A DNA stretch of 64,000 nucleotides. Source: Cryptosporangium minutisporangium (GTDB lineage Bacteria > Actinomycetota > Actinomycetes > Mycobacteriales > Cryptosporangiaceae). The position numbers were made by a program, and so were the translations under genes. The notes under the pieces are model-generated. The model ran no database searches, was not told the origin of the DNA, and saw nothing but the letters and a program-made list of their open reading frames with translations. Positions 9,143-56,549 of this stretch are shown in pieces (position 1 is the first letter of the stretch; every line of letters begins with the position of its first letter). The DNA lies in the NCBI RefSeq assembly GCF_039536245.1, contig NZ_BAAAYN010000064.1, positions 1 to 64,000 of the forward strand, in the 5' to 3' direction.

Positions 9143-9463
9143 AGCTCCTCGAGAACTCCTGGTCGTGCGTCCCCCCACGCGCGACCAGGGTCCAGTCCCG
9201 CCCGGCCGGTACCGACCCCGCCGGCCGGGGTGCCGCTCGGCCCGCGTCCGACCCGCGCGGTCCGGTGCGGTGACGGGTGGCCGTCCGCGGCCCGGCACTG
9301 CCCATGCCGGGCCGCGGACCGGCCGATAGCGCGGTCCGCGTCCGTCGTCCGGGTGGGACCCCCGCCGCCGGTCACCCCGCGACCGCAGGCGCTCCGGCCG
9401 CTGCACGGCCGAGGCACGGCAGGTCGGCGAGTGGCCGGCTGAGGCGCCGGGCATGCTGAGCGG
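9143..9463. other. GC-rich intergenic region with a strong hairpin
   Basis: No gene is supported in this 320-bp gap. It contains a perfect 15-bp inverted repeat with a seven-base loop at 9283-9319 (arm GTCCGCGGCCCGGCA), with no U-tract. This could end transcription of the upstream gene. A CATGCT hexamer at 9452-9457 precedes the next start by six bases. Confidence 0.5.
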
Positions 9464-10267
9464 ATGTCGTCGACGATGCTCGAGGTGGGACCGCGGCTCG
9501 CGGTCGCGCTGGTAGTCCTGACGCTGATCGCCGCGGTGGTCGCGGGTATCGGACAACTCGGCCCGTGGCGCTCGATCCCGGTCGCGGCGGTACGCGCCAC
9601 CGTCCAACTCGGTGCCGTCTCGCTGCTCATCGCCGCGATCGTCTCGTCGCTCTGGTTCACCGCGCTGTTCGTCGTCGTGATGGTCGGCATCGCCGCCTGG
9701 ACCTCCGGACAGCGGATCACCCGGGCACCGACCCGTCCCGAGCGCGTCACTGCCGCACTCTGGGCGGCGCTGCCGATCGCATCCGGCAGCCTCCCCATCG
9801 TTCTCGGGCTGATCGCGGGCGGCCTCGTCCCGGTGCAAGGCATCGCGATCGTCCCGATCGCGGGGATCCTCATCGGCGGCGCGATGACCGCGACGTCGCT
9901 CGCGGGACGCCGGGCGCTCGACGAGTTGGAAACCCGCCACGGCGAGGTCGAGGCAGCGCTGTCGCTCGGCTTCCCCGATCGGGACGCCGCCCTGGAGATC
10001 TGCCGTCCGTCGGCGGGTCAGGCGCTGGTGCCTGCGCTCGACCAGACCCGTACGGTCGGCCTGGTCACGTTGCCGGGCGCGTTCGTCGGGGTGCTGCTCG
10101 GCGGTGGGAGCGCGGTCGAGGCCGGCGCCACCCAGCTGCTGGTCCTGATCGGACTGCTGGCCGTCGAGTCGATCGCGATCGTCGTAGTCACCGAACTCGC
10201 GGCGCGCGCCCGGCTGACCCGCGAGTCCGCCACCGGGCGCCAAGGAATTGGTGAGAAAACGGGGTAA
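9464..10267 (+). CDS. FetB/UPF0014-family ABC permease
   Basis: The protein has 267 residues and about seven membrane helices. The family hallmark is present: PIAGILIGGAMTATSLAGRR, then the cytosolic helix LETRHGEVEAALSLG, and PALDQTRTVGLVTLPGAFVG followed by a last helix pair. In E. coli FetB partners with the ATPase FetA to export iron and resist oxidative stress. No FetA-like ATPase is adjacent, so either it is encoded elsewhere or this is an orphan. ATG 9464 has CATGCT six bases upstream and no SD. A second ATG at 9476 is possible. Confidence 0.82.
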   Translation: MSSTMLEVGPRLAVALVVLTLIAAVVAGIGQLGPWRSIPVAAVRATVQLGAVSLLIAAIVSSLWFTALFVVVMVGIAAWTSGQRITRAPTRPERVTAALWAALPIASGSLPIVLGLIAGGLVPVQGIAIVPIAGILIGGAMTATSLAGRRALDELETRHGEVEAALSLGFPDRDAALEICRPSAGQALVPALDQTRTVGLVTLPGAFVGVLLGGGSAVEAGATQLLVLIGLLAVESIAIVVVTELAARARLTRESATGRQGIGEKTG

Positions 10268-10425
10268 TCGGCGCTGCGATAAGCCGCAGTTCTCACCGAT
10301 TCATGAGGCGGTTTCGACCCGTCGTGGCAGGGGTAGGGGCGTCGTACCTCTTTCAGCCCCTTTCTCTCCTCCCTCTTACGACGGTGTTGAGCCCCCGTCT
10401 CCGACGGGGACAGAAACGGTCGGTG

Positions 10426-11700
10426 ATGCCCGTGTCTGTCGACCATTTGCGCCTCCGGACCGGCCCGTTCCTGCTGGGCCTGCTCCTCGTCGCAGCGACG
10501 TTGACCGCCTGTTCCGGCGGGGATTCCCGGACGACGATCACGTTCTTCCAGTTCAAGCCCGAAGCTCAGGCCTACTTCCAAGACCTCGCGCGGCAGTTCG
10601 AGGCCGCGAACCCGGACGTGCGGATCGTCGTCGACAATCCCGCGGAGCCGGAGACCGCGCTCCGGACCCGTCTGGTCAAGAACGACGTACCGGACGTGAT
10701 GTCGCTGAACGCGAACGGTCCGTTCGGCGAATGGGCGACCGCCAAGATCTTCCGCGACTTCCGCGACGAACCCATCGTGGACGACGTCAACCCGGCCTAT
10801 CTGGAGGTCATCCGGAACCTGGGTCAGGGTTCTCGCGGCGAGGTCAACGGTGTCCCGTTCGCGGCGAACGCCAGCGGACTGCTCTACAACAAGCAACTGT
10901 TCGCCCAGCACGAGGTCGCGGTTCCGCGGACGTTCGACCAGTTGATCGCCGCTGCGGAGAAGTTCAAGGCCGCCGGGATCACCCCGTTCTACGGCATGCT
11001 CGCGGACTACTGGACCGCGCAGTCACCGCTCGCGCCGCTGACCGCCCAGACCCAGGGCGACACCTTTTTCGAGGACCGGTTCGCCGGAGAGACCGACTTC
11101 CAGACCGGCTGGCGCGAGGCGATGGAGAAGCTCGCCCAGCTGTTCCGGTACACCCAGCCGGACCCGCTCTCCAAGGGTTACGAGGACGGCACCGCAGCCT
11201 TCGCCGCGGGCGACTCCGCGATGCTGCTGCTCGGCAGTTACGCGGTCCCGCAGATCCGGGCGAGCAAGCCGAAGTTCGAGGTCGGCAGTATCCCGCTGCC
11301 GGCTACCGACGATCCGTCGAGGACGACGCTCGTCTCCGGCGTCGACGTCGTGCTGACGGCGTCGCGCAACGGTGAGCACCCGGAGGAATCGCAGCGCTTC
11401 ATCGATTTCCTCATGGGGGAGAAGGTCATGAGCGATTACTGCAAGGCCCAGGTCGCCGTTCCCACCCGCAAGGGCCTCACGAACACCGACCCGGCGCTGG
11501 CCGACGTCCAGCCCTACGTCAACGCCGGCCGGATCGTCGGCTTCACCGACCACCAGTTCATCTTGGCGATCCCGCTCGGGCCGCTGCTGCAGGAGTTCCT
11601 GCTCGACGGCGACGTCGACAGCTTCCTCCGCGACCTCGACGATGCCTGGGACAAGGTCGCGAAACGGCGTACCTGGGGCCTCGGGGCGGTGACGAGCTGA
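10426..11700 (+). CDS. Sugar ABC transporter substrate-binding lipoprotein
   Basis: The protein has 424 residues. A lipoprotein signal with lipobox LTAC (Cys29) is followed by a type-I (MalE/UgpB-like) solute-binding fold: ITFFQFKPEAQAYFQDLARQ, DVMSLNANGPFGEWA, GEVNGVPFAANASGLLYNKQ, GDSAMLLLGSYAVPQI and a C-terminal DDAWDKV. It captures a carbohydrate outside the membrane for the two permeases directly downstream, with one-base TGATG overlaps. ATG 10426 is chosen so that the lipobox sits at normal distance. A small hairpin (CCCCGTC/GACGGGG, 10393-10409) overlaps the presumed ribosome-binding purines and might modulate translation. Confidence 0.9.
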   Translation: MPVSVDHLRLRTGPFLLGLLLVAATLTACSGGDSRTTITFFQFKPEAQAYFQDLARQFEAANPDVRIVVDNPAEPETALRTRLVKNDVPDVMSLNANGPFGEWATAKIFRDFRDEPIVDDVNPAYLEVIRNLGQGSRGEVNGVPFAANASGLLYNKQLFAQHEVAVPRTFDQLIAAAEKFKAAGITPFYGMLADYWTAQSPLAPLTAQTQGDTFFEDRFAGETDFQTGWREAMEKLAQLFRYTQPDPLSKGYEDGTAAFAAGDSAMLLLGSYAVPQIRASKPKFEVGSIPLPATDDPSRTTLVSGVDVVLTASRNGEHPEESQRFIDFLMGEKVMSDYCKAQVAVPTRKGLTNTDPALADVQPYVNAGRIVGFTDHQFILAIPLGPLLQEFLLDGDVDSFLRDLDDAWDKVAKRRTWGLGAVTS

Positions 11701-39894: not shown

Positions 39895-42800
39895 TTAGGA
39901 CGCGGGGGGTAGGCGGCGGAGTTCTGGGGGCAGCATCCTCACCTGGGAGAGGCGCTCGCCGCCCAGGGGCGCGGACGGGGCTCGGCGCGCGTTCAGGGCC
40001 GCCGCCACCGGCGGGAGCTGCGTCGCCAGGTGGTAGAGCGCCTGCTCGGTGAGGATCCCCAGCTCCATCCGCCGATCGGCGTGCAGCTCCGCAGCGGTGT
40101 CGTCACCGAGCAGCGCACCCAAGCCGAACACCTGGCCCGGCCCGAGCTCGGCGACCTGCACCGAGCGGCCGGCCGGGTCCGGGGCGAACACCCGGCCCTG
40201 CCCCCGCACCACGACCGCGAGCTGTCCGCTCCGCGCAGGCAGCGCGTCCCCGCGCTCCAGCCGAATCTCCCGGAGCGTCTCGGCCGCGACGCGCAGCCCG
40301 GCGGCGTCCAGACCCGCGAAGAACGGGACCTGAGCCAGCGCGCCCGCCGGATCCGCGATGTCGCCGGAGGTCTCCGACGGCCGCGGCAGACCGTTCTGCT
40401 CGGCCCACAGGTCGGCGTAGACGCCGCCCAGCGCGACCAACTCGTCGTGCCGGCCCTGCTCGACGACCTGACCGCTCTCGAGCACGTAGATCTGGTCGTA
40501 GTCGACGATCGACGTCAACCGGTGCGTCACCGCGATCAACGTCCGGCCGCTGCTCACCGACTCCAGCGTCTCGGCGACCAGCCGCTCGGTGCGGGGGTCG
40601 AGCGCGGACGTCGCCTCGTCGAGCAGGAGCACCGCCGGATCGCGCAGCAGCGCCCTGGCCAGCGCGAGCCGCTGCCGCTGCCCGCCGGACAGCCGCACGC
40701 CGCGCTCGCCGACGGGGGTGTCGTAGCCCCGAGGCAGCGTCGTGATGTATTCGTGCAGCTGAGCGGCGCGCGCCGCCTTCTCGATCTCCTCCGGTGAGGC
40801 GCCAAGCCGCCCCAGGCCGATGTTGTCGCGCAGCGTCCCGTCGAACAGGAACGTCTCCTGGAACACGACGCCGAGCTGACCGCGCAGCGAGGCGAGCGTG
40901 GCCCCCCGGATGTCGCGGCCGTCGAAGAGCACCGCGCCTCGGTCCGGGTCGTAGAAGCGCATCATCAGCTGCAGCGTCGAAGACTTCCCGGCGCCGGTGG
41001 GGCCGACGAACGCGACCTTCGTGCCCGCCGGAATCGTGACGTCGATGCCGCGCAGCGTGGGCCGGTCGCCGTCGTAGGAGAACGAGAGGTCCGCCAGGCG
41101 GATCTCCCGCCGCAGCGGCGGCAGCGGAGTGGCCTGCGGGTGGTCGTCGATGTCCGGCTTCGCGCCGAGGATCTCGTTGACCCGCTGCAGCGCACCGGTC
41201 GACGTCTGGATCTGCTGCCCGATCCCGGTCAGCGCGGTCACCGGGCCGACCACTGTCGAGATCTGGGTGATCGCCGCGACGAACGCACCGACGGACAGGT
41301 TTCCCTCGATCACGAGGTAGCTGCCGACCAGGAGCGTGACCAGCCGCAACGTCGTGACCACGGCGTCCACCGAGAGGTCGAACAGGCCGCTGAAGAGCTG
41401 GAGCGACAGTTGGCGGGTGAACAACCGGTCGGACTGCCGCTTGAACCGGCGCCGCTCCTCGTTCTCCAGACCGAAGGCCTGGACCACCGCGTGCGCCTGG
41501 TAGCTCTCGGCCGCTACCGAGACCAGCCCGCCGACGTTCTCCTGCACCGCTTTGCTGCGTTTGAGCGCCGGCCCGTCCAAGCGCCGGTAGATGAACGCGA
41601 CGATCGGCGCGCCGGTGAGCACGATCAGCCCGAGGATCCAGTTCAGGGTGAGCAGGACCCCGGCGGACACGATCAGCGTCAGCGTCTGGAACAGGCCGTC
41701 CCGGACGGTGTTCGACAGCCCCTGCTCCAGTTGGCCGACGTCGGACAGCAGCCGGGACAGGATGTCGCCCTGTTTCCGTGCCGAGTACCAGCGGGCCGAC
41801 AGCGACTGCAGCCCGCTGAACATCTGGGTGCGTAATTCGCGGACGATCGACGAGCTGACGAACGCCGAGACGTAGTTGCGCCGCAACTCGGCCAGCAGGC
41901 CCACCGCGAACGTGGCGGCGAGCAGACCGACGATGCGGATGACGGTGTCGAAGTCGGCGGTGCCCTGGGTGAGCTCGTTGACCAGCCGGGAGAACGCGAA
42001 CGGGAACACCGCGACGAAGCCGAGCTCGAGCAGCAGGTAGAAGCCGATCTCGATCTCGCGCCGGAGGTACGGCCGGATGTAGCGCCCGGCCAGCCGCAGG
42101 AACGCGGTGATCCGGACCTTCTCCTCCTCGCCCTCCAGCGTGCGGAGCCACTGCTCCTCCAGACCGGCGAGCCCGGTGCCGTAGACCTCCTGCACGGTCA
42201 GGTCGGTCTGGCCGGGGCGGGACGTGGTGAAGACCTTCAGGAGGTCGGCCTCGCTGCCCCGCTCCAGCAGGAACCGGACGAACGACAGCGCCATCAGCGT
42301 CCGCAGCTCGCCCTCGGCCCGGACCAGCGGCGGCAGGCCGTGCTCCTCATCGATGTCGGCGAGGTAGGCGTCGGCCGACGGCACGCCGCACAGATGCAGG
42401 CCGTAGCCCTCGATCAGCAGCTCGACGTCGCGGGCGGCAGGCAGCGCGGCGCCGAAGAACAGCGCGAGCGGGCGCTCCGGCGGCTCCGGCGGCGATTCAG
42501 CGGTGACGACCACGAAGATCTCACCGCGGGCGGCGTCGACGACCGTGCCGGACGTCAGGATCATGCCCGGGTCGTCCGGGTCCGGGAACGGGTCGACCAG
42601 GCAGATCTGCGGCTTCACGCCCCAGGGCTCGGAGCCGAGGCCGGCCAGTCGCTTGCGGGCGCGCTTGACCGCGGCGGCGTAGCCGTTCGCGGCCGCCTCA
42701 CCCGCACTGCCCGGCCGGTACCGCAGGACCGCGGCGTCGGTCTCCTTGGCGACCATCTCCTCGAGCGCGGGCCGGACCGGCAGCAGCGGCTGACCGGTCT

Positions 42801-43455
42801 GGAACGCGGACCCCTCGGCAGCCGCCCCGTCGTAGCGCGGGGAGCTGTCCGGGGGAGGAGTGACCACCGCACGCCCGGCCACCGGCACCTGCGCCGAACC
42901 CAGCGCCGGAGGCTTCGGGGAGAACGAGCCGACCGCGGCGGAACCGACCGCAGGCTGGACCGGCGCGGGCACCTGCGCACGCCCGGCCGCGGGCGCGGCT
43001 GCTCCACGGTCCGCCGGCTCGTCCCGCGGCGCGCTCGCCGCTCCGGCGGCTCCCGCGCCGGGTTGCGGACCGGCCACCCGTGCGCTTCCGAGCGCCGGTG
43101 CGCCGCCACCTCCGGGAGGCGCCTCGGCGGGCGCGCCGGGCAAACCCGTGTCCGTCGGCGCCTCGTCCAGCGGTCCGATCACCGCGATCCGGACGTCGCC
43201 GAGCCCGACGACGTCGCCCGGCTCCAGCAGCGTCTCCGCCTGGATCGCGACGCCGTTGACCGTGGTCCCGTTCGTACTTCCGAGGTCGCGGACGGTCAGG
43301 AAGTCTTCGACGCTGGTGAGCGCGGCGTGCCGACGGGACGTCTCCGGGTCGGAGAGCAGGATGCCGGACGCGTCCCGGCCCACCTCCACGACACCGTCGA
43401 TGACCGCCGTTCGTGCCGCGAGTCCGCTCTCGCGGACCTCGACGAGCTGCGCCAT
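39895..43455 (-). CDS. FHA - ABC exporter - cNMP-binding fusion protein
   Basis: The protein has 1186 residues. Residues 1-90 form an FHA phospho-Thr-binding domain with intact VEVGRD, SRRHA and STNGT. A Pro/Ala linker reaches about 225. Residues about 230-440 form an uncharacterised domain ending FVRFLLERGSEADLLKVF and YGTGLAGLEEQWLRTLEGEE, resembling peptidase-MA-like regions but with no HExxH. An exporter membrane domain (about 465-740) leads to an ABC ATPase: GPTGAGKSST (about 820), LSGGQRQRLALARALL (about 922), LLLDEATSALD, TVHRL-type H-loop (VTHRLTS). A C-terminal cNMP-binding fold (about 1040-1150) has FGLGALLGDDTAAELHA, lacking the Glu and Arg that grip cAMP. ATG 43455 lies four bases after the cyclase stop. 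It is probably a kinase-regulated peptide or lipid exporter. Confidence 0.88.
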   Translation of the reverse strand: MAQLVEVRESGLAARTAVIDGVVEVGRDASGILLSDPETSRRHAALTSVEDFLTVRDLGSTNGTTVNGVAIQAETLLEPGDVVGLGDVRIAVIGPLDEAPTDTGLPGAPAEAPPGGGGAPALGSARVAGPQPGAGAAGAASAPRDEPADRGAAAPAAGRAQVPAPVQPAVGSAAVGSFSPKPPALGSAQVPVAGRAVVTPPPDSSPRYDGAAAEGSAFQTGQPLLPVRPALEEMVAKETDAAVLRYRPGSAGEAAANGYAAAVKRARKRLAGLGSEPWGVKPQICLVDPFPDPDDPGMILTSGTVVDAARGEIFVVVTAESPPEPPERPLALFFGAALPAARDVELLIEGYGLHLCGVPSADAYLADIDEEHGLPPLVRAEGELRTLMALSFVRFLLERGSEADLLKVFTTSRPGQTDLTVQEVYGTGLAGLEEQWLRTLEGEEEKVRITAFLRLAGRYIRPYLRREIEIGFYLLLELGFVAVFPFAFSRLVNELTQGTADFDTVIRIVGLLAATFAVGLLAELRRNYVSAFVSSSIVRELRTQMFSGLQSLSARWYSARKQGDILSRLLSDVGQLEQGLSNTVRDGLFQTLTLIVSAGVLLTLNWILGLIVLTGAPIVAFIYRRLDGPALKRSKAVQENVGGLVSVAAESYQAHAVVQAFGLENEERRRFKRQSDRLFTRQLSLQLFSGLFDLSVDAVVTTLRLVTLLVGSYLVIEGNLSVGAFVAAITQISTVVGPVTALTGIGQQIQTSTGALQRVNEILGAKPDIDDHPQATPLPPLRREIRLADLSFSYDGDRPTLRGIDVTIPAGTKVAFVGPTGAGKSSTLQLMMRFYDPDRGAVLFDGRDIRGATLASLRGQLGVVFQETFLFDGTLRDNIGLGRLGASPEEIEKAARAAQLHEYITTLPRGYDTPVGERGVRLSGGQRQRLALARALLRDPAVLLLDEATSALDPRTERLVAETLESVSSGRTLIAVTHRLTSIVDYDQIYVLESGQVVEQGRHDELVALGGVYADLWAEQNGLPRPSETSGDIADPAGALAQVPFFAGLDAAGLRVAAETLREIRLERGDALPARSGQLAVVVRGQGRVFAPDPAGRSVQVAELGPGQVFGLGALLGDDTAAELHADRRMELGILTEQALYHLATQLPPVAAALNARRAPSAPLGGERLSQVRMLPPELRRLPPAS

Positions 43456-43459
43456 CCGC

Positions 43460-46400
43460 TCACCCACCCAGCCGCAGCACGACCGAGCGCGCCCGCGCTC
43501 CGGCGATCACGTTGCCCTTGCGTTCGTACCGGTCCAGCGCCTCGGACGCCGTCATCCGCGCACCGATCGGATCTCCCAAGAGCTCCAGCACCTCCGCCAG
43601 GTCGAGCAGGGCGTCCGCCTCCACCGTGGACAGCCCGGTGCCCCGGACCGCGTTCACCGCCGACCTGGCCGCGGTCACCGCCTGCTCCACCCGGCCCAGC
43701 CGGGCCAGCGCCTTTCCGCGGGCGGCCCGCGCGGTGGCCTGCGCGACGACCTCGTCGCTCGGGGCGGCGCGCTCGGCGTCACTGGCCAGCTGTGCCGACT
43801 CGGCGAGCACGCCCTGGGAGTACCGGGCCTGCGCGAGCAGCGCGAGCAGGTTCGACAGCACGTACCGCTCGCCCATCTCCGCGCACTCCTCGGCGCCGGC
43901 GTGCAGCTTCGCGGCTGCGGCCGCCGGGTCACCGGCCAGCATCTCGACGTAGCCGCCGAGGTAGGCGAGCGAGACCGCACGGACCCGCAGGCCCAGCCGG
44001 TCGGTGATCGCCTGGGCGGCGACCAGGTGCTCGCGGGCGTCGTCGAAGCGACCGGCCATCGCGGACAACCCGGCCAGCGCCCCGCGCAACCGCACCTCGG
44101 CGGTGCGGTTGGTCGAGACCTTGGTCAGCTCGGCCCGGTACTGGGCGATCGTCGGCTCCACCGGTGCGTCCCCGAGCACGGCGGCGAGCGCGAACGCCTT
44201 CGCGATCGCCTGCCGCCGTCCGTCGGCACCGGACCCGGCGCCGCTGGCGTCCGCGTCGGTCCGCGCGCGGTCGGCGTTGTTCACCGAACGCGGCAGCCAC
44301 CGGACGTCGCGGAGCAGCGTCCAGCTGGCCGCGACCGATCCACCACCGGCGCCACCCAGCTCGACGGTGGTCGTCAGGTCGGGCAGCGGCTGGCGGTCAT
44401 CGGTGCGCGCCGGTGCGGCGGCCTGGTCGTCGGCCGAGGGCCCGGAGAGCAGCCGCAGCACCGACCGGACCTTCTCGGCCTCCGCGCGGAGCTCCGTGTC
44501 GCCGGTCCGGTCGGCCGCCGTCGCGGCCTCGGTCAGCAGATCGGCCGCGCGGGTGAACTCGCCGCGCTCAACCAGCGCGGCAGCGAACTGGGGCAGCAGA
44601 CCGACCCGGCCAGGGTGCTCGGCGGGCAGCAGTGCGGTCGCCCGCCGGAGCAGCGTGATCGCGGCCGGCATGTCCCGCCGCGCGAACGCCCGGCGCCCGG
44701 CCCGCCCGAGGTGCTCGGCGGCGCGGCGGGAGAGTTCCTGCGTCTCGGGGTCGGCCGGGCCGATACCGGTGCGGTACCGGGCGGCCTGCTCCAGGTGGTA
44801 GCCGACGATCTCCTCCAACTCGGGCAGCCGACCGGCGAGTGTCTCCTCCATCCACCGTCCGGCGGCCTCGTGCAGGTGCGCGCGTTCCCGCTTCGACAGC
44901 GAGTTGTAGGCGGCGTCCCGCATCAGCTGGTGGCGGAAGCGCAGTGCGCTCTCGCCGTGCAGCACGGAGCCTTCCGGGCGGAGCAACTCCTTGCGTACCA
45001 GCGACAGCAGCGCGCCGGTGACGTCACGTCGCTGCTCCGGCGGGGTGAGTGCGGCGACGCCGTTGCGGTAGAAGACGTCGCCGACGACGCTGGCGCGCTC
45101 CAGCACGCTCCGCTCGTCCTTCGACAGGCCGTCCAGGCGGGCGGCGAGCAGCGCGGCGACGCTCGGCGGCACCGCCAGCCGGTTGATCTCGGCGGTCAGC
45201 GTCCAGCGCCCGTCGACCCGGTCGAGCAGACCGTCGTCGAGCAACATGCCGACCAGCTCTTCGATGTAGAGCGGGTTGCCCTCGGCCGCCTCGACGATCC
45301 GGGCGCGGACCTCCTCGGCGCCCACGGCACCGTCGAGCAGGTTGTCCAGCAGCGCCGCCGACTCGGCCGCGGCGAGCGGTTCGAGCATCAGCGTCCACGT
45401 GTTGGTGCCGCCGCTCCACTCCGGACGCGCCTCCAGCAACTCCGGCCGGGACAGGCAGCAGATCAGCACCGGGCTGTCCCGTAGCCACTCGGCGAGCCGG
45501 AGGATCAGGTCGAGGAGCGCCGGCTCGGCCCAGTGCAGGTCGTCCAGCACCAGCACCAGCGGACGCCGGGCCGCGAGCGCGGAGGCGAAGCGGTACATCG
45601 CCTCCGGCAATTCCTCGACGCTGCCGGTCGGGACGGTCTGCGCCGCCGGATCTGCCGGGGTGGTCGGCTCGCCGAGCAGCCCGGCGAGCGCGGTGACCGT
45701 CCGGTCGTCGCCCGGGAGCAGCGTCGAGAGTTTGCGGCGTACCGCGGCGATGTCCTCCTCCGGACCCACGCCTGCCGCTTGGCGAACCACCTCGGCGAGC
45801 GGCCAGTAGGTCAACCCGTCGCCGTAGCTCAGGCACTGGCCACGCAGCACGGTCGCCCGGTCGCCGACCTTGCTGAGCAGCTCGTACAGCAGCCGGGACT
45901 TCCCGGCTCCGCCCGAGCCCAGCACGGTGACGGTCCGGACGGTGCGTTCCGCCACGGTGCGCTCGAACAGCTGCTCCAGGAGGGCCAGCTCCTGGGTCCG
46001 CCCGACGATCGGGGCGTCCAGCCGGCGGGCGTGGCCGGAGGCGCCCGGCTTGACCGCGAGCAGCCGCCAGGCGTCCACCGGGACGCCCCGGCCGCGGACC
46101 GTCATCGGCGGCAGCATCTCGGCCTTGACGGCGTCCCGTGACAGCTTGTAGGTCGCGTCCCCGATCAGCACGGTGCCGGGGTCGGCCGCGGTCTCCAGCC
46201 GGGCCGCCACGTTGACGACGTCGCCCAGCGTGATGTCTTGGCCGAGGAACGCCGCGCCGATGACCACCTCACCGGTGTTGACGCCGGTGCGCAGGTTCAG
46301 CGTGACCTGCCAGTCCCGCTCCAGCGTCCGGTTGAGGTCCTCCAGCGACGCGTGCAGCTCCGCGGCGGCGCGGACGGCACGCAGCGCGTCGTCCTCGCGG

Positions 46401-46993
46401 GCGTTCGGCAGCCCGAACACCGCCATCACCGCGTCGCCGATGAACTTCTGGACGCGTCCGCCGTGCTTCACGTGGATCGCTGTCGCGTGCTCGTAGTAAC
46501 GGGTCATCATCCGGCGCAGCACCTCGGGGTCGAGGCGCTCGCCCAGCCCGCTGGAGCCGACGACGTCGGTGAAGACAACCGTGATCGTCTTGCGTAGTTC
46601 CCGGGTGTCGTCGGAGGTGAGCGCGTTTCCGCAGGAAAAGCAGAACCGAGCCTGCGGCGGGTTGTTCTCCTCGCCGCAGTTCGAGCACCTGAGCACGGTC
46701 GGCACGGAGGTAGCGTAGGCGTCCGTCGCCTCCTGGCCTACCCGGACTGACGGGGACCTGACTCCGTGGGGAAGCTCACGAGCCGTGTCCGTGGTGACGA
46801 GGGACCGGGGCGCTGGGTGTGGGCCGAACCGCAGCCGACGGGCGGTGTCGGCACCGTGGAGCGCATCGGCTCCCAGCGACGTGAACCGCGTGGCCTGAGT
46901 GGTTCTCGTGTCCGGCTCGGCGGCCGGTGTGTCACGCGCGGAGAAGCGAACGGTCGGTTGGTGGTCGGCCTGCGGGCCCGAGGGGCCGCTCAC
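43460..46993 (-). CDS. Class III adenylate cyclase with zinc ribbon, AAA ATPase and TPR
   Basis: The protein has 1177 residues. A disordered 95-residue start leads to a zinc ribbon (RCSNCGEENNPPQARFCFSC, about 102-121). The cyclase domain follows with FTDVVGSSGLGERLD and KFIGDAVMAVFG (metal Asp residues and the adenine-selecting Lys) and LGDVVNVAARLE (transition-state Asn/Arg). Next is an ATPase with GSGGAGKSRLL (about 360) and LVLVLDDLHWAEP, then TPR-like helices from about 700. The catalytic set is complete, so cAMP synthesis is expected, gated by the STAND-like ATPase module. GTG 46993 overlaps the Crp stop (GTGA); a shorter start at 46705, immediately before the zinc ribbon, is possible. 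Confidence 0.9.
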   Translation of the reverse strand: MSGPSGPQADHQPTVRFSARDTPAAEPDTRTTQATRFTSLGADALHGADTARRLRFGPHPAPRSLVTTDTARELPHGVRSPSVRVGQEATDAYATSVPTVLRCSNCGEENNPPQARFCFSCGNALTSDDTRELRKTITVVFTDVVGSSGLGERLDPEVLRRMMTRYYEHATAIHVKHGGRVQKFIGDAVMAVFGLPNAREDDALRAVRAAAELHASLEDLNRTLERDWQVTLNLRTGVNTGEVVIGAAFLGQDITLGDVVNVAARLETAADPGTVLIGDATYKLSRDAVKAEMLPPMTVRGRGVPVDAWRLLAVKPGASGHARRLDAPIVGRTQELALLEQLFERTVAERTVRTVTVLGSGGAGKSRLLYELLSKVGDRATVLRGQCLSYGDGLTYWPLAEVVRQAAGVGPEEDIAAVRRKLSTLLPGDDRTVTALAGLLGEPTTPADPAAQTVPTGSVEELPEAMYRFASALAARRPLVLVLDDLHWAEPALLDLILRLAEWLRDSPVLICCLSRPELLEARPEWSGGTNTWTLMLEPLAAAESAALLDNLLDGAVGAEEVRARIVEAAEGNPLYIEELVGMLLDDGLLDRVDGRWTLTAEINRLAVPPSVAALLAARLDGLSKDERSVLERASVVGDVFYRNGVAALTPPEQRRDVTGALLSLVRKELLRPEGSVLHGESALRFRHQLMRDAAYNSLSKRERAHLHEAAGRWMEETLAGRLPELEEIVGYHLEQAARYRTGIGPADPETQELSRRAAEHLGRAGRRAFARRDMPAAITLLRRATALLPAEHPGRVGLLPQFAAALVERGEFTRAADLLTEAATAADRTGDTELRAEAEKVRSVLRLLSGPSADDQAAAPARTDDRQPLPDLTTTVELGGAGGGSVAASWTLLRDVRWLPRSVNNADRARTDADASGAGSGADGRRQAIAKAFALAAVLGDAPVEPTIAQYRAELTKVSTNRTAEVRLRGALAGLSAMAGRFDDAREHLVAAQAITDRLGLRVRAVSLAYLGGYVEMLAGDPAAAAAKLHAGAEECAEMGERYVLSNLLALLAQARYSQGVLAESAQLASDAERAAPSDEVVAQATARAARGKALARLGRVEQAVTAARSAVNAVRGTGLSTVEADALLDLAEVLELLGDPIGARMTASEALDRYERKGNVIAGARARSVVLRLGG

Positions 46994-47655
46994 CGGGCCT
47001 TACGGACGAGTGCCGCCGGGTTGAGGATCTCGATCTTCGAACGTCCGATCGCGATGATGCCGGCCTCCTCCACGGCGCGTAACGCCTGGTTCGTCGTGGG
47101 GCGCGAGGTACCGGCGAGGCTGGCGATGACCTCCTGGGTCAGCGGTACCGCGACCGGCCGGGTGCGCCCGTCGTCGTACGCGCGGGCCAGCGTCGCGAGG
47201 CGCCGGAGCACACGTTTGTCCGCCGGTAGGTACAGGAACTCCAGCAGCCGGCCGTTGAGCCGTCGGACCTCGTTCGCCAGCAGCTCGGCCAGTACCCGAT
47301 CGACTCGCGGGTACTGCTGACGCAGCGCGTCGAAGCGGTCGCGCTGCAGTGACAGCGTCTCGCACCCCTCCAACGCGGTCACCGTCGCCGACCGCACCGC
47401 CTTGTGCGGATCGGCCTCGAGCAGGGCCAGCTCGCCGACGGTCTCGCCGGGCCCGAGGACGGCCAGCGTCACGCTGTCCCCGGCCCCGGTCGTCACCCGG
47501 ACGCTGACGTGGCCGGACTCGATCAGGTGTAGCGAGTTCGCCGGGTCGCCCTCGTGGAAGAGCACCTCGTTGCGGCGGAACTTCCGGCGTCGGGCGACGG
47601 CCAGCAGCTCACGCCGCTCTTTGTCGCTGATCATGGACAGCGTGGACCACTCCAT
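46990..47655 (-). CDS. Crp/Fnr-family transcriptional regulator
   Basis: The protein has 221 residues. The cyclic-nucleotide-binding barrel includes FHEGDPANSLHLIESGHVSV and the phosphate-binding cassette VGELALLEADPHKAVRSATV, with the Glu and the Arg-Ser that contact cAMP in Crp. The C-terminal HTH reads PLTQEVIASLAGTSRPTTNQ. No Fe-S Cys is present. It probably responds to cAMP made by the cyclase encoded next in the operon, which overlaps it by GTGA. ATG 47655 has AAGGGGAG upstream, and the kinase gene ends 15 bases before. Confidence 0.92.
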   Translation of the reverse strand: MEWSTLSMISDKERRELLAVARRRKFRRNEVLFHEGDPANSLHLIESGHVSVRVTTGAGDSVTLAVLGPGETVGELALLEADPHKAVRSATVTALEGCETLSLQRDRFDALRQQYPRVDRVLAELLANEVRRLNGRLLEFLYLPADKRVLRRLATLARAYDDGRTRPVAVPLTQEVIASLAGTSRPTTNQALRAVEEAGIIAIGRSKIEILNPAALVRKAR

Positions 47656-47670
47656 CGACCGCGACTCCCC

Positions 47671-49797
47671 TTAAGATCCGAACTTCACCGAGTCGAGCAG
47701 AGCTTTGAACTTGGCCTCGTTCTTGCTCCACGCGCCCTCGGATGCGAAGAAAACGAGCACCACGTTCTCGGCGCCTGCCGGATCGTTCACGACGAAGCAG
47801 CGGATGCGAAGTTCGCCGTCGCCGTCGTCCGCGCGTAGCCAGCCGTCGTGCCGGGTCGCGTCCCGGCCGTCGACGACCGTGTCTTCCTGTCCGCTCAGCG
47901 TGGGCGCGGTCGGTAGCTGGTTGATCAGCGAGTTCTTGCGCTCCTCCGGGGTGTCCGCGAACGGAGTGGTGCTCAGCAGCGAATACACGCCGACCACCGA
48001 GTCCGGGTCGTCGCTCAGCGCACTGCGGAGCTGGGTCCAGCCCGCGCTCGTGCCGGGCGAGGTGAACAGCGCGGAGGCCTCGTCGGCGTGCGGCGAGAAC
48101 GTGAGGTTCGTGCCGGTGCCGACGCGGTCCCAGCTCTCCGGGTAGTCGAAGGACACCGGCAGCGTCGTCGTCGCGTCGAAGTGTTTCGTTCCCTCCTCGA
48201 ACGGCTTGACGACGAGGAGCAGCACGAGCGCGATCACCACCACCAGCGCTCCGGCGAGCCCTCCGATCAGCAGTTTCCGCCCGCGCCCGGAACCGGGTGT
48301 GGGCGGCGTCGCCTGGCTGGGCGGTGCGGAGTACGGGTACGGCGGAGCCGAGCCCGAGTGGGGTGGTGACGAGTACGGGAACGGCGGGGCCGACCCGGGG
48401 TGCGGCGGTGCCGAGTACGGGTGCGGCATCTGCTGGTTCGGCGGTGCCGACTGTGGCTGCGGCGGTGCCGACTGGGGGTAGCCGCTGGGCGGGAACTGCG
48501 TCGGCGAGTACTGGTTCGGATACGTGCCGTGCGGTGGGGCGCTGGCCGGCGAGTACTCCGACCCCGGGTACTGGGCACCTGGGTACTGGGAGCCCGGGTA
48601 CGGGACACCCGGCTGCTGGACGCCCTGGTGCTGGACGCCCTGGTGCTGGACGCCCTGCTGATGTTGGGCGGCCTGCTGGTGTTGGGCCGCCGGCAGCGGT
48701 GTGCCGTGCGGTTGCTCGGTGGCACCGGTGGACGGCGGCGCCGACCAGCCCGGCACCGGCGGACCCTGGGTGACCGGCCCCTGCGTTCCCTGGGTGACCG
48801 GCGGCTGCGGACCAGGCGGCGCCGACGTCGGGGAGTGCGGCGTCGGCGGGGTGTCCGTGGGACGGCCGGACGGCGGCGCGCTGCTGGGGCTGACGCCGGT
48901 GCCGTCGGCCGCGCTGGCCGGCAGCGTGACCTGCTGGCCGCCGAACGCCGCGCCCAGCGCGGTGATGAACTCGCCGCAGGACGAGAAGCGGCCCTCCGGA
49001 CCCTTGGCCATCGCGGTCGCGATCACCTGGTCGACGGCGGTCGGGATCTCCGGACGCACGGAGCTGACCGGCGTCGGCATCTCCATCAGGTGCGCCCAGA
49101 GCAGCGCGGCGTCGTCGTCCCGGATGAACGGGACCTTGCCGGTCAGCGCCTGGTACACGACGCAGCCCAGCGCGTACACGTCGGTGCGGGCGTCGACCGG
49201 CTTGCCGCCGATCTGCTCCGGCGCGACGTAGTCCATCGTCCCGACGACGATGCCGGTGGCGGTGACGCCGGTCAGCGACGACGCCCGCTTGGTCAGGCCG
49301 AAGTCGCTCAGGTACACGTGGTCGCGCCCGACCGGCGTGGTCGCGGCCGAGACCAGGATGTTGGCCGGCTTTACGTCGCGGTGCACGAGACCGGCCTGGT
49401 GGGCGGCGTCCAGCGCAGCGCCCACCTGACCGAAGAGTGCCATCGTCTCGTCGACGGTGAGCGTCCCGCGTCGCTTGAGCACGACCTTGAGGTCGGCGCC
49501 CTCCACGTAACGCATGGCGAGGTAGAGGTGACCGTCGGCCTCGCCGGCCTCGTAGATCGGGATGATGTTCGGGTGATCGAGGGAGGCCGCCAGACGCGAC
49601 TCGCGGAGGAACCGCTGCCGGAACTCGTCGTTCTGGGCGAGTTCCGGCGCCAGCACCTTCACCGCGACGATGCGGCCCAGCCGGGTGTCCTCCGCGCGGT
49701 AGACGTACGCCATCCCACCGCGCCCGATCAGCGACTGCAGTTCGTAGCCCGCAGCGCGAAGCCCGTCCAGGCGCGCGGACTCGACTGGATCGTTCAT
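47671..49797 (-). CDS. Transmembrane Ser/Thr protein kinase (PknB-like)
   Basis: The protein has 708 residues. The kinase domain (about 18-270) is complete: IGRGGMAYVYRAED, VAVKVLAPE, LVHRDVKPANILVS (catalytic loop), LSDFGLTKRAS and the activation segment TGIVVGTMDYVAPEQIGGK with potential autophosphorylation Thr residues. A 230-residue Pro/Gln-rich linker with repeats such as QHQGVQ precedes a membrane helix (LLIGGLAGALVVVIALVLLL) and an extracellular domain of about 175 residues (DATTTLPVSFDYPESWDRVG onward) resembling secreted PsbP-like/lipoprotein domains. It likely phosphorylates partners bound by the FHA domain of the exporter. ATG 49797 is 29 bases after the pseudoprotease stop. Confidence 0.93.
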   Translation of the reverse strand: MNDPVESARLDGLRAAGYELQSLIGRGGMAYVYRAEDTRLGRIVAVKVLAPELAQNDEFRQRFLRESRLAASLDHPNIIPIYEAGEADGHLYLAMRYVEGADLKVVLKRRGTLTVDETMALFGQVGAALDAAHQAGLVHRDVKPANILVSAATTPVGRDHVYLSDFGLTKRASSLTGVTATGIVVGTMDYVAPEQIGGKPVDARTDVYALGCVVYQALTGKVPFIRDDDAALLWAHLMEMPTPVSSVRPEIPTAVDQVIATAMAKGPEGRFSSCGEFITALGAAFGGQQVTLPASAADGTGVSPSSAPPSGRPTDTPPTPHSPTSAPPGPQPPVTQGTQGPVTQGPPVPGWSAPPSTGATEQPHGTPLPAAQHQQAAQHQQGVQHQGVQHQGVQQPGVPYPGSQYPGAQYPGSEYSPASAPPHGTYPNQYSPTQFPPSGYPQSAPPQPQSAPPNQQMPHPYSAPPHPGSAPPFPYSSPPHSGSAPPYPYSAPPSQATPPTPGSGRGRKLLIGGLAGALVVVIALVLLLVVKPFEEGTKHFDATTTLPVSFDYPESWDRVGTGTNLTFSPHADEASALFTSPGTSAGWTQLRSALSDDPDSVVGVYSLLSTTPFADTPEERKNSLINQLPTAPTLSGQEDTVVDGRDATRHDGWLRADDGDGELRIRCFVVNDPAGAENVVLVFFASEGAWSKNEAKFKALLDSVKFGS

Positions 49798-49826: not shown

Positions 49827-51665
49827 TCAGTGCACCCGGTTCCCGCAGTAACCGCAGAACTGCTGCCCCGGCTGGAGCGGCTGCCCACATTGGTCACAGC
49901 TGCCGGCGGCGTCACCGGTGGAGCCGGTGCCCTCGCCCTGGCGGGCGAGCACGCTGGCCGGTGCGCCCTCGGCACCGGGTGCGCCGCTCGACGAGTCACC
50001 GGCCACGACCGTGGCGCCCGACGGGTCGCTCTGCTGCCCCGGTAGGGGCGGGGGCGTCGACGGCGACAGCCGGAGGACGGTCTGCGCCTCGGAGTTCGGA
50101 TCGGCGTAGGGGACGCCCGACGACGGCGCACCGTACGGAGTCTCGCTGTAGCTCGGCACCCCCGGGTAGGGGTTCTGAGCCGGGTAGGCGCCACCGGAGA
50201 CACGCGGGTCGACCCAGCCGGGCGGTGCCGACGTCGGCCAGCCGGCGGGCGGCGCGCTGGCCGGCGACCCGACGGCCCCGGGATACGGCGCGCCCAGCGG
50301 CACCTGGACGCCTGGCTGGCCGTAGCCGGGCATCAGGTTGGGGTCGATCGGCGGTGCGCCGGCCCCGGAGCCACCCTTGCCGCCGCGTCCCCGCAGCAGC
50401 ACGGCACCGAGTAGCAGTACCAGCACGAGGATCGCGCCGAGACCGCCCCAGAGCAGGATGTTGCCGGGGCCGTCGGACTCGCCGGAGCTCTGCTCGTCGC
50501 TGCCGAAGCCGGAGGTGTCGGTGGCGCCGTCGGTGCCCTTGTCGGCCGACGTTCCCTGACGCTGCTTGGCGATCGCGAGCTTCTCCGTGGCCAGCAGGTG
50601 GCCCGGGTAGAGCTTGAGCACCTGCGTCAGGTTCGGCACCGCCGCGCTGTAGAGGCCGTTGTTGTAGTTGTGCAGGGCGTTCTCGTACGTGAGGTCGGTG
50701 GGGCCGCGCTCGGCCTTCACGTCCACGGCGGCCAGCGCCTCGGTGACCTGCTCCGGCCCGACCAGCTTGATGTCGTTGCCAGACGGACTGAGGAAGCCGA
50801 CGACCTGCCCCTTCTCGGAGACGACCGGACCGCCGAGCAGGCCGGCGGGCAGCCCGCGCTTGAGCTCGGCCAGGTAGTCGTCGTTGGGCCGGACGACGCC
50901 ACTGCCCTTCTTGGTGAAGTGCACCTGGATCGGCTTGAGCGACTTCTCGTCCGTCGGCGTGTTCATGAAGCCGAGGGTGCTGACCGCTTCCACGTTGTCC
51001 GACGAGGTGCCGAGCACCACCGACGGCATGCTGCTCGCGCCGATCTTCAGCACCGCCACGTCGGACTTCTGGCCGCCGGTCGGGTACACGACCTGGGCAG
51101 GCAGGTCGCCGAACTGCTTCTGGTCGGCGACGTACGGCTGCACGGTGACCACGGCCTGCGTGAAGATCACGCAGCCGCCGCTCTCGTCGGTGGTGTTGCC
51201 CTGGTAGCAGCGCTGCAGCCGCTTGCTGACGACGTCGCCGGTGTTCGCCGAGGGCTTGGCCTTGCTGTACGGATCGGCCGGCATCGGGGCGCCGTCGCCG
51301 TAGCGCTCGTTGAAGATCTTGTTCACCGCGAAGATCGCGGCCCGGTTGAGGTCGACGCCGGTCACGGCGGGTGACGTGACGATCGTGCCGCTCGGGTTGA
51401 CCACGAAGCCGCTGCCGGTACCCAGCATCGGCTGGTAGGAGCGCTGCACGAGCGAGATGTCGTTACCGGACGGCCCTTGGAAGTTGTGCTCGATCAGCGA
51501 GATGCTGACCTTGCCGTAGGTCATGATCCGAACCACGGCCGGAGAGATCAGCTCGACCGGCGTCGGGTGCTTGTGGGCCTGGGCCGGGGTGGCGATACCG
51601 AGCGTGAGGGCCGAGACGCAAACAGCAAGAACCGCTGCGGTCAGCCGGAGACGAGGCAGACGCAT
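49827..51665 (-). CDS. Trypsin-fold pseudoprotease, membrane-anchored, with C-terminal zinc ribbon
   Basis: The protein has 612 residues. A signal peptide (MRLPRLRLTAAVLAVCVSAL, cleavage after AQA near 31) is followed by an extracellular trypsin-like domain (35-320) with GTGSGFVVNPSGTIVTSPAV and SDVAVLKIG. The His expected in the TAAHV-like position is absent, and the GNSGGPVV motif reads GLLGGPVV, so the catalytic Ser is Leu. A short TPR-like segment (YENALHNYNNGLYSAAVPNL), a membrane helix (ILLWGGLGAILVLVLLLGAV), a Pro-rich cytosolic tail and a zinc ribbon (SCDQCGQPLQPGQQFCGYCG) follow. ATG 51665 has GGAGG upstream. It is the first gene of the five-gene operon and probably a ligand sensor. 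Confidence 0.85.
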   Translation of the reverse strand: MRLPRLRLTAAVLAVCVSALTLGIATPAQAHKHPTPVELISPAVVRIMTYGKVSISLIEHNFQGPSGNDISLVQRSYQPMLGTGSGFVVNPSGTIVTSPAVTGVDLNRAAIFAVNKIFNERYGDGAPMPADPYSKAKPSANTGDVVSKRLQRCYQGNTTDESGGCVIFTQAVVTVQPYVADQKQFGDLPAQVVYPTGGQKSDVAVLKIGASSMPSVVLGTSSDNVEAVSTLGFMNTPTDEKSLKPIQVHFTKKGSGVVRPNDDYLAELKRGLPAGLLGGPVVSEKGQVVGFLSPSGNDIKLVGPEQVTEALAAVDVKAERGPTDLTYENALHNYNNGLYSAAVPNLTQVLKLYPGHLLATEKLAIAKQRQGTSADKGTDGATDTSGFGSDEQSSGESDGPGNILLWGGLGAILVLVLLLGAVLLRGRGGKGGSGAGAPPIDPNLMPGYGQPGVQVPLGAPYPGAVGSPASAPPAGWPTSAPPGWVDPRVSGGAYPAQNPYPGVPSYSETPYGAPSSGVPYADPNSEAQTVLRLSPSTPPPLPGQQSDPSGATVVAGDSSSGAPGAEGAPASVLARQGEGTGSTGDAAGSCDQCGQPLQPGQQFCGYCGNRVH

Positions 51666-54103: not shown

Positions 54104-54826
54104 ATGACAGTCCTGTCCGTCGATGCCCGCCCGTACCCGTTCACGTTCGACCCGGCGACGACCGCGCTCGTCGTCATCGACATGCAGCGCGACTTCATGG
54201 AGCCCGGCGGCTTCGGGGAGACGCTCGGCAACGACGTCAGCCTGCTCCGGTCGACGATCGAGCCGACCGCCGCGACCCTGACGGCGTTCCGCGCCGCCGG
54301 GATGACGATCGTCCATACTCGCGAAGGCCACCGGCCCGACCTCTCCGACCTGCCGGACGCCAAGCGGAACCGCGGCAACCCCACGCTCCGGATCGGCGAC
54401 GAGGGGCCCAGGGGGCGCATCCTCGTCGTCGGCGAAGAGGGCCAGGACATCGTCGACGAACTCCGGCCGCTGCCGGGCGAGGCGGTCGTCGACAAACCCG
54501 GCAAGGGAGCGTTCTACGCCACCGAGTTCGGTGACCTGTTGCAGCGCGCCGGGATCACCAGCCTGGTCGTGGCCGGGGTGACCACCGAGGTGTGCGTGCA
54601 CACCACGGTCCGCGAGGCCAACGACCGCGGGTACGAGTGCCTGGTGCTCTCCGACTGCGTCGGCTCGTACTTCCCGGAGTTCCACCGGATCGCGCTGGAG
54701 ATGATCGCCGCCCAGGGCGGCATCTTCGGCTGGGTCACACCCTCATCGACAGTGCTCGACGCGCTGGCCGCGTCGGCCGGCGAGGGGTCACCCACCACCT
54801 CAGTCCTCAGCCAGAGCGCGTCGTAA
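54104..54826 (+). CDS. Second isochorismatase-like cysteine hydrolase
   Basis: The protein has 240 residues, a paralogue of the upstream gene. The triad lies in [17 protein letters not shown] (Asp), [16 protein letters not shown] (Lys) and [20 protein letters not shown] (Cys), and AAQGGIFGW keeps the Gln. It differs in the lid region ([20 protein letters not shown]), so it probably acts on a related but different amide. ATG 54104 has GGAAGGCG upstream. The permease gene starts 10 bases after its stop. Confidence 0.87.
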
Positions 54827-54836
54827 GGGGAGTCCG

Positions 54837-56549
54837 ATGGTCAAGCTGAGCCTGCCCGGCAGATCCGGAACGAGCACACTTCCGCTCTGGGTCCGTGGCG
54901 ACACCAACGCGTTCTTCGGCCTGGGCATCAACGTCCTGGTCAACGTGTTGACGCTGTCCGGTCTGTGTCTGTTCGTCGTGCACATCCCGAAGGACGACGT
55001 CTTCGGCTCGATCCTGCCGGCGCTGGGCATCGCGCTCGTCGTCGGCAACGCCTACTACACCTACCTCGCGCGGAAGCTGGCGGCGCGGGAGAACCGCAGC
55101 GACGTCACCGCGATGCCGTACGGGCCGAGCGTCCCGCACATGTTCATCGTGGTGTTCCTGATCATGCTGCCGATCTACCTGGAGACGAAAGACCCGCTCC
55201 AGGCCTGGCAAGCCGGTCTGGCCTGGGCCTTCATCATCGGCGTCATCGTGCTGATCGGAGCGTTCGTCGGTCCGTACATCCGGCGGTGGACGCCCCGGGC
55301 CGCGATGCTCGGCACGCTCGCGGGTATCTCGATCACGTTCATCTCGATGCGGCCGGCCGGGCAGATGTGGGCCCAGGCCTGGATCGCGCTGCCCGTGTTC
55401 GCGCTGCTGCTCGTCGGGCTGTTCACCGACCTCAAGCTGCCGGGGAACATCCCGATCGGGCTGGCGGCGCTGGTGCTCGGTACCGCGATCGGCTGGATCG
55501 GCGGCGCGATGTCCGTCCCGGACGTGAGCGCCGCAGCCGAGGACATCGCGTTCGCGGTCCCGAACTTCCACTTCGGTGAGCTGTTCGACGGGCTGAGAGA
55601 GGTCGGGCCACTTCTGGCTACGGCGATCCCGCTCGGCGTCTACAACTTCACCGAGGGCATGACGAACGTCGAGAGCGCGGCCACCGCCGGCGACAACTAC
55701 AACCTGCGCAGCATCCTGCTGGCCGATGGTGCCGGTGCGGTGATCGGCGCCGCGCTCGGCTCCCCGTTCCCGCCGGCGGTCTACGTCGGGCACCCGGGGT
55801 GGAAAGCGGCCGGTGGCCGGGCCGGCTACTCGTTGGCGGCCGGCGTCGTCATCGCGATCCTCTGTTTCCTGGGTATGTTCTCGCTGCTCGGCGCCGTGCT
55901 GCCGACCGCGGCGATCGTTCCGATCCTGCTCTACATCGGTCTGCTGATCGGTGCTCAAGCCTTCCAAGCGACGCCACGCGCGCATGCGGCGGCGGTGGTC
56001 GCGGCGCTGATCCCGAACATCGCGTCCTGGGCCACGGGGCAGATGGACAACGCGCTCGCCGCAGCTGGTACGACCGCGGCGGCCGTCGGGGAGGACGCGC
56101 TGGCGAACGCCGGGGTCGTCTACGGCGGTCTGACCACGCTCGGGCAGGGTGCGGTGCTGGCCGGCATGGTGCTCGGAGCGCTGGTCGTCTTCCTGATCGA
56201 CAAGAAGTTCATCAGGGCCACGGTGGTGGCCGTGGTCGGCGCGGTGCTCTCGTTCGTCGGGCTGATCCACGCGCCGGAGGTCGGCTGGAACATGAACGGG
56301 CAGGTGGCGCTCGGCTACCTGTTCGTCGCGGTGGTCTGCGCGGCGTTCGCGGCGAGCCGGCCGGCGCCCCGGGTACCGGACGCCGAGGAGATCGCGCTCG
56401 ACCGCCTGCACGGTGGCGGGGCGGCCGTCCAGCCGGGCGAGGAGCCGGCTGGAACGCTCGTCCCCGCCGCTGATGTGATGCCCGCGCCCCGGACGGTGCC
56501 CGCCGACGAGAAGCTCGCCGACGAGAAGGTCACGACCGCCGAGAAGTGA
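54837..56549 (+). CDS. NCS2-type nucleobase/ureide permease
   Basis: The protein has 570 residues with about 13 membrane helices. The opening PLWVRGDTNAFFGLGINVLV, AMPYGPSVPHMFIVVFLI, IPLGVYNFTEGMTNVESAAT and the half-helix GSPFPPAVYVGHPGWKAAGG agree with xanthine/uracil/AzgA-like permeases. A charged C-terminal tail of about 60 residues is extra. By position it imports the substrate of the two hydrolases, perhaps a small ureide or triazine-like nucleobase analogue. ATG 54837 follows AAGGGGAG. Confidence 0.88.
   Translation: MVKLSLPGRSGTSTLPLWVRGDTNAFFGLGINVLVNVLTLSGLCLFVVHIPKDDVFGSILPALGIALVVGNAYYTYLARKLAARENRSDVTAMPYGPSVPHMFIVVFLIMLPIYLETKDPLQAWQAGLAWAFIIGVIVLIGAFVGPYIRRWTPRAAMLGTLAGISITFISMRPAGQMWAQAWIALPVFALLLVGLFTDLKLPGNIPIGLAALVLGTAIGWIGGAMSVPDVSAAAEDIAFAVPNFHFGELFDGLREVGPLLATAIPLGVYNFTEGMTNVESAATAGDNYNLRSILLADGAGAVIGAALGSPFPPAVYVGHPGWKAAGGRAGYSLAAGVVIAILCFLGMFSLLGAVLPTAAIVPILLYIGLLIGAQAFQATPRAHAAAVVAALIPNIASWATGQMDNALAAAGTTAAAVGEDALANAGVVYGGLTTLGQGAVLAGMVLGALVVFLIDKKFIRATVVAVVGAVLSFVGLIHAPEVGWNMNGQVALGYLFVAVVCAAFAASRPAPRVPDAEEIALDRLHGGGAAVQPGEEPAGTLVPAADVMPAPRTVPADEKLADEKVTTAEK

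Follow-up and report, generated by a model that had tools for sequence, protein, structure and literature searches.

The window, i.e. the whole 64,000-nucleotide stretch of Cryptosporangium minutisporangium DNA analysed here, contains on its minus strand an operon that begins with the gene for the protease-like membrane protein P0001 and continues with genes for a transmembrane Ser/Thr kinase, a CRP/FNR-type regulator, a class III cyclase and an FHA-ABC exporter-cNMP protein (table 1). Intergenic gaps measure 29, 15 and 4 nt; between regulator and cyclase there is instead an overlap of 4 nt. Re-reading the sequence bore out the open reading frame, strand and coordinates of P0001, the ATG of which lies at 51665 with GGAGG immediately upstream. 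All four sampled congeners have the first four genes in the same order, followed by FHA-ABC sequence (also in all three of the other species). Elsewhere in the window, a 570-residue open reading frame (54837-56549), hydrophobic by eye and without a Pfam family at E 0.01, lies beside an isochorismatase gene (54104-54826).

Table 1. Features of the P0001 operon in the window, and kinase-less neighbour genes in two other genomes
Feature	Position	Strand	Basis or remark
P0001, pseudoprotease	49827..51665	minus	612 aa; three congeneric orthologues
P0001 ectodomain, predicted trypsin/HtrA double-barrel fold with disabled triad	50646..51575	minus	Trypsin_2 at residues 84-290; model and fold matches; dN/dS
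TPR-like segment of P0001, after the protease domain	50562..50696 (approximate limits)	minus	aligned to TPR_1 of intact homologue
P0001 transmembrane helix NILLWGGLGAILVLVLLLGAVLL	50394..50462	minus	by eye; kept in four species
P0001 C-terminal four-Cys zinc ribbon	49836..49901	minus	ribbon-profile matches; also terminal in 24/35 intact homologues
Catalytic His position, Ala100 codon	51366..51368	minus	alignment with intact homologues (TAGH)
Catalytic Asp position, Asp202, retained	51060..51062	minus	alignment with intact homologues
Catalytic Ser position, Leu277 codon	50835..50837	minus	alignment with GMSGGP of intact homologues
Transmembrane Ser/Thr kinase, next gene	47671..49797	minus	Pkinase 168.5 bits; 29 nt after P0001
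Kinase ectodomain, predicted PsbP/Mog1/LpqN-like	47674..48168	minus	model pLDDT 80.6, pTM 0.83
CRP/FNR-type cyclic-nucleotide-binding regulator	46990..47655	minus	Pfam scan; kept in 4/4 congeners
Class III cyclase-AAA-TPR protein with N-terminal ribbon	43460..46993	minus	domain scan; seen in the operon in this genus only
Cyclase ribbon	46625..46690	minus	ribbon-profile match
FHA-ABC exporter-cNMP-binding protein, last operon gene	39895..43455	minus	FHA 50.7 bits, ABC_membrane, ABC_tran
Kinase-less neighbour gene, G283	L056 8272-9054		TM helix and kinase ectodomain
Kinase-less neighbour gene, G714	L178 5397-6170		TM helix and kinase ectodomain

From its N-terminus, P0001 consists of a signal peptide, an HtrA-like ectodomain, a TPR-like segment, a transmembrane helix, a Pro/Ala-rich linker and a C-terminal zinc ribbon, with signal peptide and helix read by eye from the sequence. 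Trypsin_2 scores 26.8 bits, slightly below the Pfam cut-off of 27.6, and Zn_ribbon_3 scores 26.5 bits against a cut-off of 27. The Pfam scan found no TPR in P0001 itself, where the TPR-like segment is assigned by alignment to an intact homologue with a TPR_1 match of 29.3 bits, and no PDZ domain at E ≤ 1. The double zinc ribbon profile (DZR) is covered by half only in both P0001 and the operon cyclase (20.6 bits each versus a cut-off of 27.3), and neither protein belongs to this family, in which two ribbons form one unit.

A structure model built from eight sequences (P0001 and seven relatives; pLDDT 67.5, pTM 0.67) bore out the suggestion of the earlier note that the ectodomain is trypsin-like. 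In VIA-align it matched MucD with Z 17.6 (rmsd 3.3, 170 residues aligned) and HtrA1 with Z 17.0, and 968 of the 993 aligned chains reached Z ≥ 8; the best Foldseek match had E 3.9e-9, with a TM score of 0.38 by query and 0.65 by target. As modelled, the ectodomain is an HtrA-like double beta-barrel. For this and for the kinase ectodomain below, absence of a family from the VIA-align lists was not read as exclusion.

At the three catalytic sites P0001 reads Ala/Asp/Leu instead of His/Asp/Ser. The three other congeners have T/D/S, S/D/S and T/P/D at these positions: two of them, G002 and G003, keep the Ser within an intact GMSGGP motif, and the third, G001, has GLDGAP at the Ser site and has lost the Asp as well. 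By alignment, therefore, the loss that is constant within the genus is that of His (four of four species), with Ser surviving in two. The proposed loss of both His and Ser thus holds for P0001 (Ala100, Leu277), and its Ser half does not extend across the genus. With an HtrA-like ectodomain, a dead triad, a transmembrane helix and a terminal ribbon, the proposed picture of a membrane pseudoprotease with a cytosolic ribbon is supported.

With P0001 as a single query, the genome scan returned no relatives, and the sole match in its own genome at a threshold of E 0.01 was P0001 itself; an alignment-based scan yielded seven loci. At E 1e-8, a five-member profile matched 41 of the 298 genomes sampled from the order; a pseudoprotease profile, many of whose matches were partial, matched 66 of the 396 phylum genomes at E 1e-6. 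Sixty-seven family members were classified for their triad, with counts that cover the fetched neighbourhoods only: the His-Asp-Ser triad is intact in 35 and lost in 32. A terminal ribbon, i.e. one within 25 residues of the C-terminus, is present in 24 of the 35 intact members (the ribbonless L108 is cut by a contig end). The ribbon must therefore predate catalytic loss and have long been present in the active members of the family, and on sequence grounds it is part of a protease family that spans the phylum.

The 32 members without a triad comprise 16 kinase-linked ones, the window included, 15 loci of family f15 and the single locus L121, which has D/N/S at the triad sites and a ribbon but no kinase. 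Family f15 (L053, L058 and L125-L137), which we take to be Micromonospora-like, represents a second triad-less lineage, with neither ribbon nor adjacent kinase and with Q/N/R or Q/N/H at the triad sites in 10 of its 15 members. Ten f15 proteins that were examined share a conserved N-terminal region of about 110 residues with a weak likeness to a kinase N-lobe. Classifying them as kinase-pseudoprotease fusions was considered and rejected, as this region matches the kinase N-lobe at an hhalign probability of only 4.

A tree of 52 of the 67 members (which omits 11 f15 loci out of 15, along with four intact members that were weak or distant) places the 16 kinase-linked pseudoproteases in one clade, with support of 99/97. 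Its sister group consists of three intact members, L105, L107 and L108, and is joined to it at 100/100. The clade extends to another order of the class (G305) and to another class of the phylum (G338), the G338 member L106 sitting on a long branch (88/80) at a position inside the clade that is unsure. Since a single clade has an intact sister, the His was lost on the same branch on which the kinase neighbour was gained; by the same token this is one evolutionary event followed by long retention, which limits the weight of the association with the kinase. Homologues with intact triads, which the earlier note had named as evidence against its reading, do occur in the family at large (the 35 loci), but none lies inside the kinase-linked clade.

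Is P0001 then simply a pseudo-enzyme in decay, without a function? The Ser site does vary freely over the clade (L, S, D, H, R, Q, A, T and N), as such decay would predict. Pairwise dN/dS for the ectodomain, on the other hand, is 0.20-0.41 (six species pairs from four species), which indicates purifying selection and argues that the ectodomain is not simply decaying; the frames are open, and the operon and a Cys pair are conserved, so that we regard decay as hardly credible. This Cys pair is found in the 15 clade members shown and in the three intact sisters, and is absent from two more distant intact proteins shown.

A different role for a dead protease fold would be metal binding, with surface histidines displayed by the fold and the metal serving as the signal, in the manner of MamO. 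MamO is among the fold matches of the P0001 model (Z 16.1, rmsd 3.0, 168 aligned) and has a di-histidine metal site according to the available passages of PMC4794232; moreover, H3, H5, H32 and H221 are invariant in all nine rows of alignment A2. In one of the two subclades an AH-x-HP motif follows the signal peptide directly, but its absence from the second leaves the clade as a whole unexplained, and we consider metal sensing very unlikely. As a separate observation, AH-x-HP and two more histidines (P0001 residues 30-34, 60 and 249, and homologues), together with the Cys pair, which is invariant in A2, outline a candidate metal site.

The partner gene in the window encodes a kinase whose ectodomain region matched no Pfam family. 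Its model, however, aligns with cyanobacterial PsbP (Z 12.5, rmsd 2.9, 133 residues) and with LpqN (Z 10.6), with a Foldseek E of 1.4e-7, and as predicted the ectodomain has a Mog1/PsbP/LpqN-like fold. Against the NCBIfam model NF033483 (PknB/Stk1) the kinase scores 322 bits, below the cut-off of 450, and the match stops at residue 306; with this score and a PsbP/LpqN-like ectodomain, it is not a PASTA kinase equivalog.

A kinase or its ectodomain lies within 1.5 kb on the same strand in 16 of 16 kinase-linked loci, but in only one of the 35 intact loci (of which L108 and L114 are cut just downstream, with the neighbour out of sight, and carry little weight). The window's own entry in the first count derives from its Pfam scan and the kinase-ectodomain search; in L056 the ectodomain alone remains, and in L044 the contig stops inside the following kinase. 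Searching for the kinase ectodomain itself (alignment A5) gave matches in 11 of 298 genomes of the order and 3 of 396 of the phylum. Every genome with this ectodomain also holds the pseudoprotease, and the two adjoin each other except for two extra matches at contig starts (G152 C253 and G201 C20), where the neighbour is out of sight. Of the 12 genomes in the order sample that hold a kinase-linked pseudoprotease, 11 have the kinase ectodomain (Fisher 3.5e-19, ignoring kinship), and in the twelfth, G145, it appears as a weak match (1.3e-5). Two of these loci hold a further kinase. In L070, a Blastococcus locus, the pair is followed by a second kinase (9110-11239) that carries a fused Hsp70 domain (Pkinase 149 bits, HSP70 158 bits), and in L044 (3-1880) an upstream kinase, present besides the downstream one, has a repeat-rich C-terminal region that looks propeller-like by eye.

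A profile built from the second subclade was later run against 112 family f16 genomes and led to six fetched loci, five of them new, with L181 being the contig of the already counted L068. The triad is lost in all six (five of five new ones), which is to be expected of loci found with a profile of clade members, so that only their neighbours constitute a fresh test. In L181 and L182 a contig end cuts off the relevant side; the other four loci all have the kinase ectodomain next to the pseudoprotease. Over the kinase-linked and clade-like homologues, His is absent from 22 of 22 and Ser from 20 of 22, and in this group the catalytic loss is conserved.

Among these 22 members, 21 have a complete C-terminus, and 19 of the 21 carry the ribbon. 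The two ribbonless ones, in G283 and G714, belong to one genus and are also the two whose visible neighbouring gene encodes a transmembrane helix and ectodomain without a kinase domain (table 1). This joint absence of ribbon and kinase domain points to the ribbon acting on the kinase side and to the ectodomains working as a pair, even if the co-loss was probably a single event in that genus. Intact homologues carry the same ribbon with no kinase neighbour, and its original partner was thus something else.

The one intact locus near a kinase is a paralogue in L054 (G151), located behind a pseudoprotease-kinase pair, and in G710, which like G283 and G714 is of the same genus, a second paralogue with an intact triad lies directly behind the kinase. 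Both paralogues (L054 12996-14402; L179 9735-11561) are without the usual ribbon; that of G710 has a Cys-rich end not matched by the ribbon pattern. An active protease can thus also sit beside the pair, which counts against a simple co-receptor reading of the pseudoprotease. One could imagine that the pseudoprotease regulates this active paralogue, with the kinase sensing the two, much as MamO, devoid of a triad of its own, promotes MamE-dependent proteolysis (available passages of PMC4794232). Such an arrangement was seen, however, only in two congeneric species; in those remaining kinase-linked loci of which both flanks are visible, no second family member was found within the stretch covered, and P0001, used as a single-sequence query, finds only itself in its own genome. 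It seems to us very improbable indeed as an explanation for P0001.

The earlier note had focused on the cyclase instead, suggesting that its N-terminal ribbon and the terminal ribbon of P0001 pair and so dock a sensor onto the cyclase. Both ribbons are encoded in one operon in all four congeners, and matches to ribbon models are scarce in the 9.2 Mb genome (four for Zn_ribbon_3, five for Zn_Ribbon_1). To call the two ribbons very similar was an overstatement, however: they agree at 10 of 23 positions (score 54), mostly in the Cys/Gly motif and with a Cys spacing of x10 versus x11, compared with 9 of 23 (score 57) for the ribbon of another cyclase, encoded outside the operon, and 8-14 of 22 or 23 for those of ten homologues. 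The P0001 ribbon is also older than the cyclase operon, given its presence in most intact homologues, and occurs in homologues beside which no cyclase was seen. Inspection of 17 kinase-linked loci from other genera, 4-19.5 kb long, revealed neither a cyclase nor a CRP-like gene; there the kinase is the conserved neighbour. Finally, three of the four Guanylate_cyc proteins of this genome have N-terminal ribbons wherever they are located. The two further cyclases of this kind (G000 C17 436785-437423 and C70 78576-79277) are encoded away from the operon; one of them has several ribbons, and those of C70 score below the Pfam cut-off. With a likeness at background level, docking through paired ribbons lacks support, was rejected as the leading interpretation and appears to us quite unlikely. 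A link of another kind between P0001 and the cyclase is conceivable, and for such a link it speaks that both are among the few ribbon-matched proteins of the genome and share an operon in four of four species.

Overall, we consider it on balance probable that P0001, a conserved pseudoprotease, serves as an extracellular co-receptor, i.e. the sensory subunit, of the adjacent Ser/Thr kinase. According to this model, an ancestral ribbon-tailed membrane protease of the HtrA type would have undergone a single loss of the catalytic His, on the very branch that also saw its linkage to the kinase. The dead fold, no longer cutting, may bind an envelope ligand or a misfolded-protein signal and contact the PsbP/LpqN-like ectodomain of the kinase; the transmembrane helix would pass its state inwards, where the ribbon on its flexible tail could hold the kinase side or a kinase substrate. 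The kinase might then drive the outputs of the operon: the FHA-ABC exporter would read phospho-Thr, and in this genus the CRP-like regulator and the cNMP domain of the exporter would read a cyclic nucleotide made by the cyclase. Triad loss in family f15 and in L121, which occurred with no adjacent kinase, runs counter to this co-receptor model. A more specific version, which we offer as tentative and rather doubtful, is that the dead cleft is permanently occupied by the kinase ectodomain in the manner of a ‘substrate’: a one-time protease would have become a dedicated kinase receptor, its former specificity now reporting the state of the envelope, with the ribbon tail meeting the kinase domain inside.

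The exporter invites a further explanation, namely that P0001 acts not on the kinase but as a modulator or chaperone of the operon's ABC exporter or of the exported cargo, with the kinase being linked as a regulator of the exporter. Three kinds of ABC transporter occur near the pair: the FHA-ABC-cNMP protein in the genus of the window, an ABC exporter located upstream in loci from Blastococcus, Modestobacter and Jatrophihabitans, and an FHA-FHA-ABC2 arrangement in G305, where two FHA domains, ABC_tran and ABC2_membrane lie beside the kinase. Kinase and FHA-ABC transporter thus share an operon in the window and in G305, as do PknF and Rv1747, which form a two-gene operon according to the available passages of PMC3908365. 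Yet these transporters differ in kind and place, the constant part being the kinase ectodomain, and we regard this explanation as unlikely. Orthology of the ABC exporters was considered and rejected, since identities of 34-36% over the exporter part, and of 46% over a shorter stretch, are usual for ABC exporters.

Should the kinase ectodomain indeed sit in the dead cleft, bacteria would possess a new type of receptor kinase made up of two obligate partners, sensor and kinase. Under the co-receptor model, a kinase ectodomain without a Pfam family would have been supplied with a likely partner. Because one branch of the family holds intact proteases and its sister branch triad-less proteins linked to the kinase, the step from enzyme to sensor becomes directly testable. 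Among the matches listed, judged by title and the opening of the abstract and with subscription literature mostly outside their scope, there was no published description of a P0001-type protein or of this kinase ectodomain. Conflict systems with trypsin, cyclase and ribbon domains overlap in theme, but the available passages of PMC7159879 do not describe this architecture, and they were set aside.

Several known systems share single elements with the one described here. The PknF-Rv1747 operon likewise combines a Ser/Thr kinase with an FHA-ABC transporter, but contains no pseudoprotease as far as the available passages of PMC3908365 go; in addition, the transporter in the window combines type I exporter domains with a cNMP domain, and the kinase there has a PsbP/LpqN-like ectodomain. 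The iRhoms are membrane pseudoproteases that regulate a signalling partner, yet they are inactive relatives of rhomboids rather than trypsin-like proteins, and their partner is not a kinase of the type found in the window (PMC6451368, available passages). With PASTA kinases such as PknB/Stk1 the kinase in the window shares the kinase domain, the difference lying in its ectodomain, which by its model is PsbP/LpqN-like instead of PASTA. HtrA/Deg proteases (S1C; MucD, HtrA1, DegQ) are secreted and have a double beta-barrel, as predicted for P0001, but in the P0001 group the His is gone and the Ser usually so, there is no PDZ domain by Pfam, and a TPR-like segment, a transmembrane helix, a long tail and a ribbon have been added. 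By analogy, the closest precedent for a dead HtrA fold put to use would be MamO, which is not known to have a ribbon tail, and the intact paralogue in G151 and G710 makes this parallel worth testing. As described in the available passages of PMC4794232, MamO of magnetotactic bacteria binds metal and activates a partner protease and is, like P0001, an HtrA-like fold with a disabled triad that was repurposed without catalysis; its partner, however, is the protease MamE, whereas that proposed for P0001 is a kinase.
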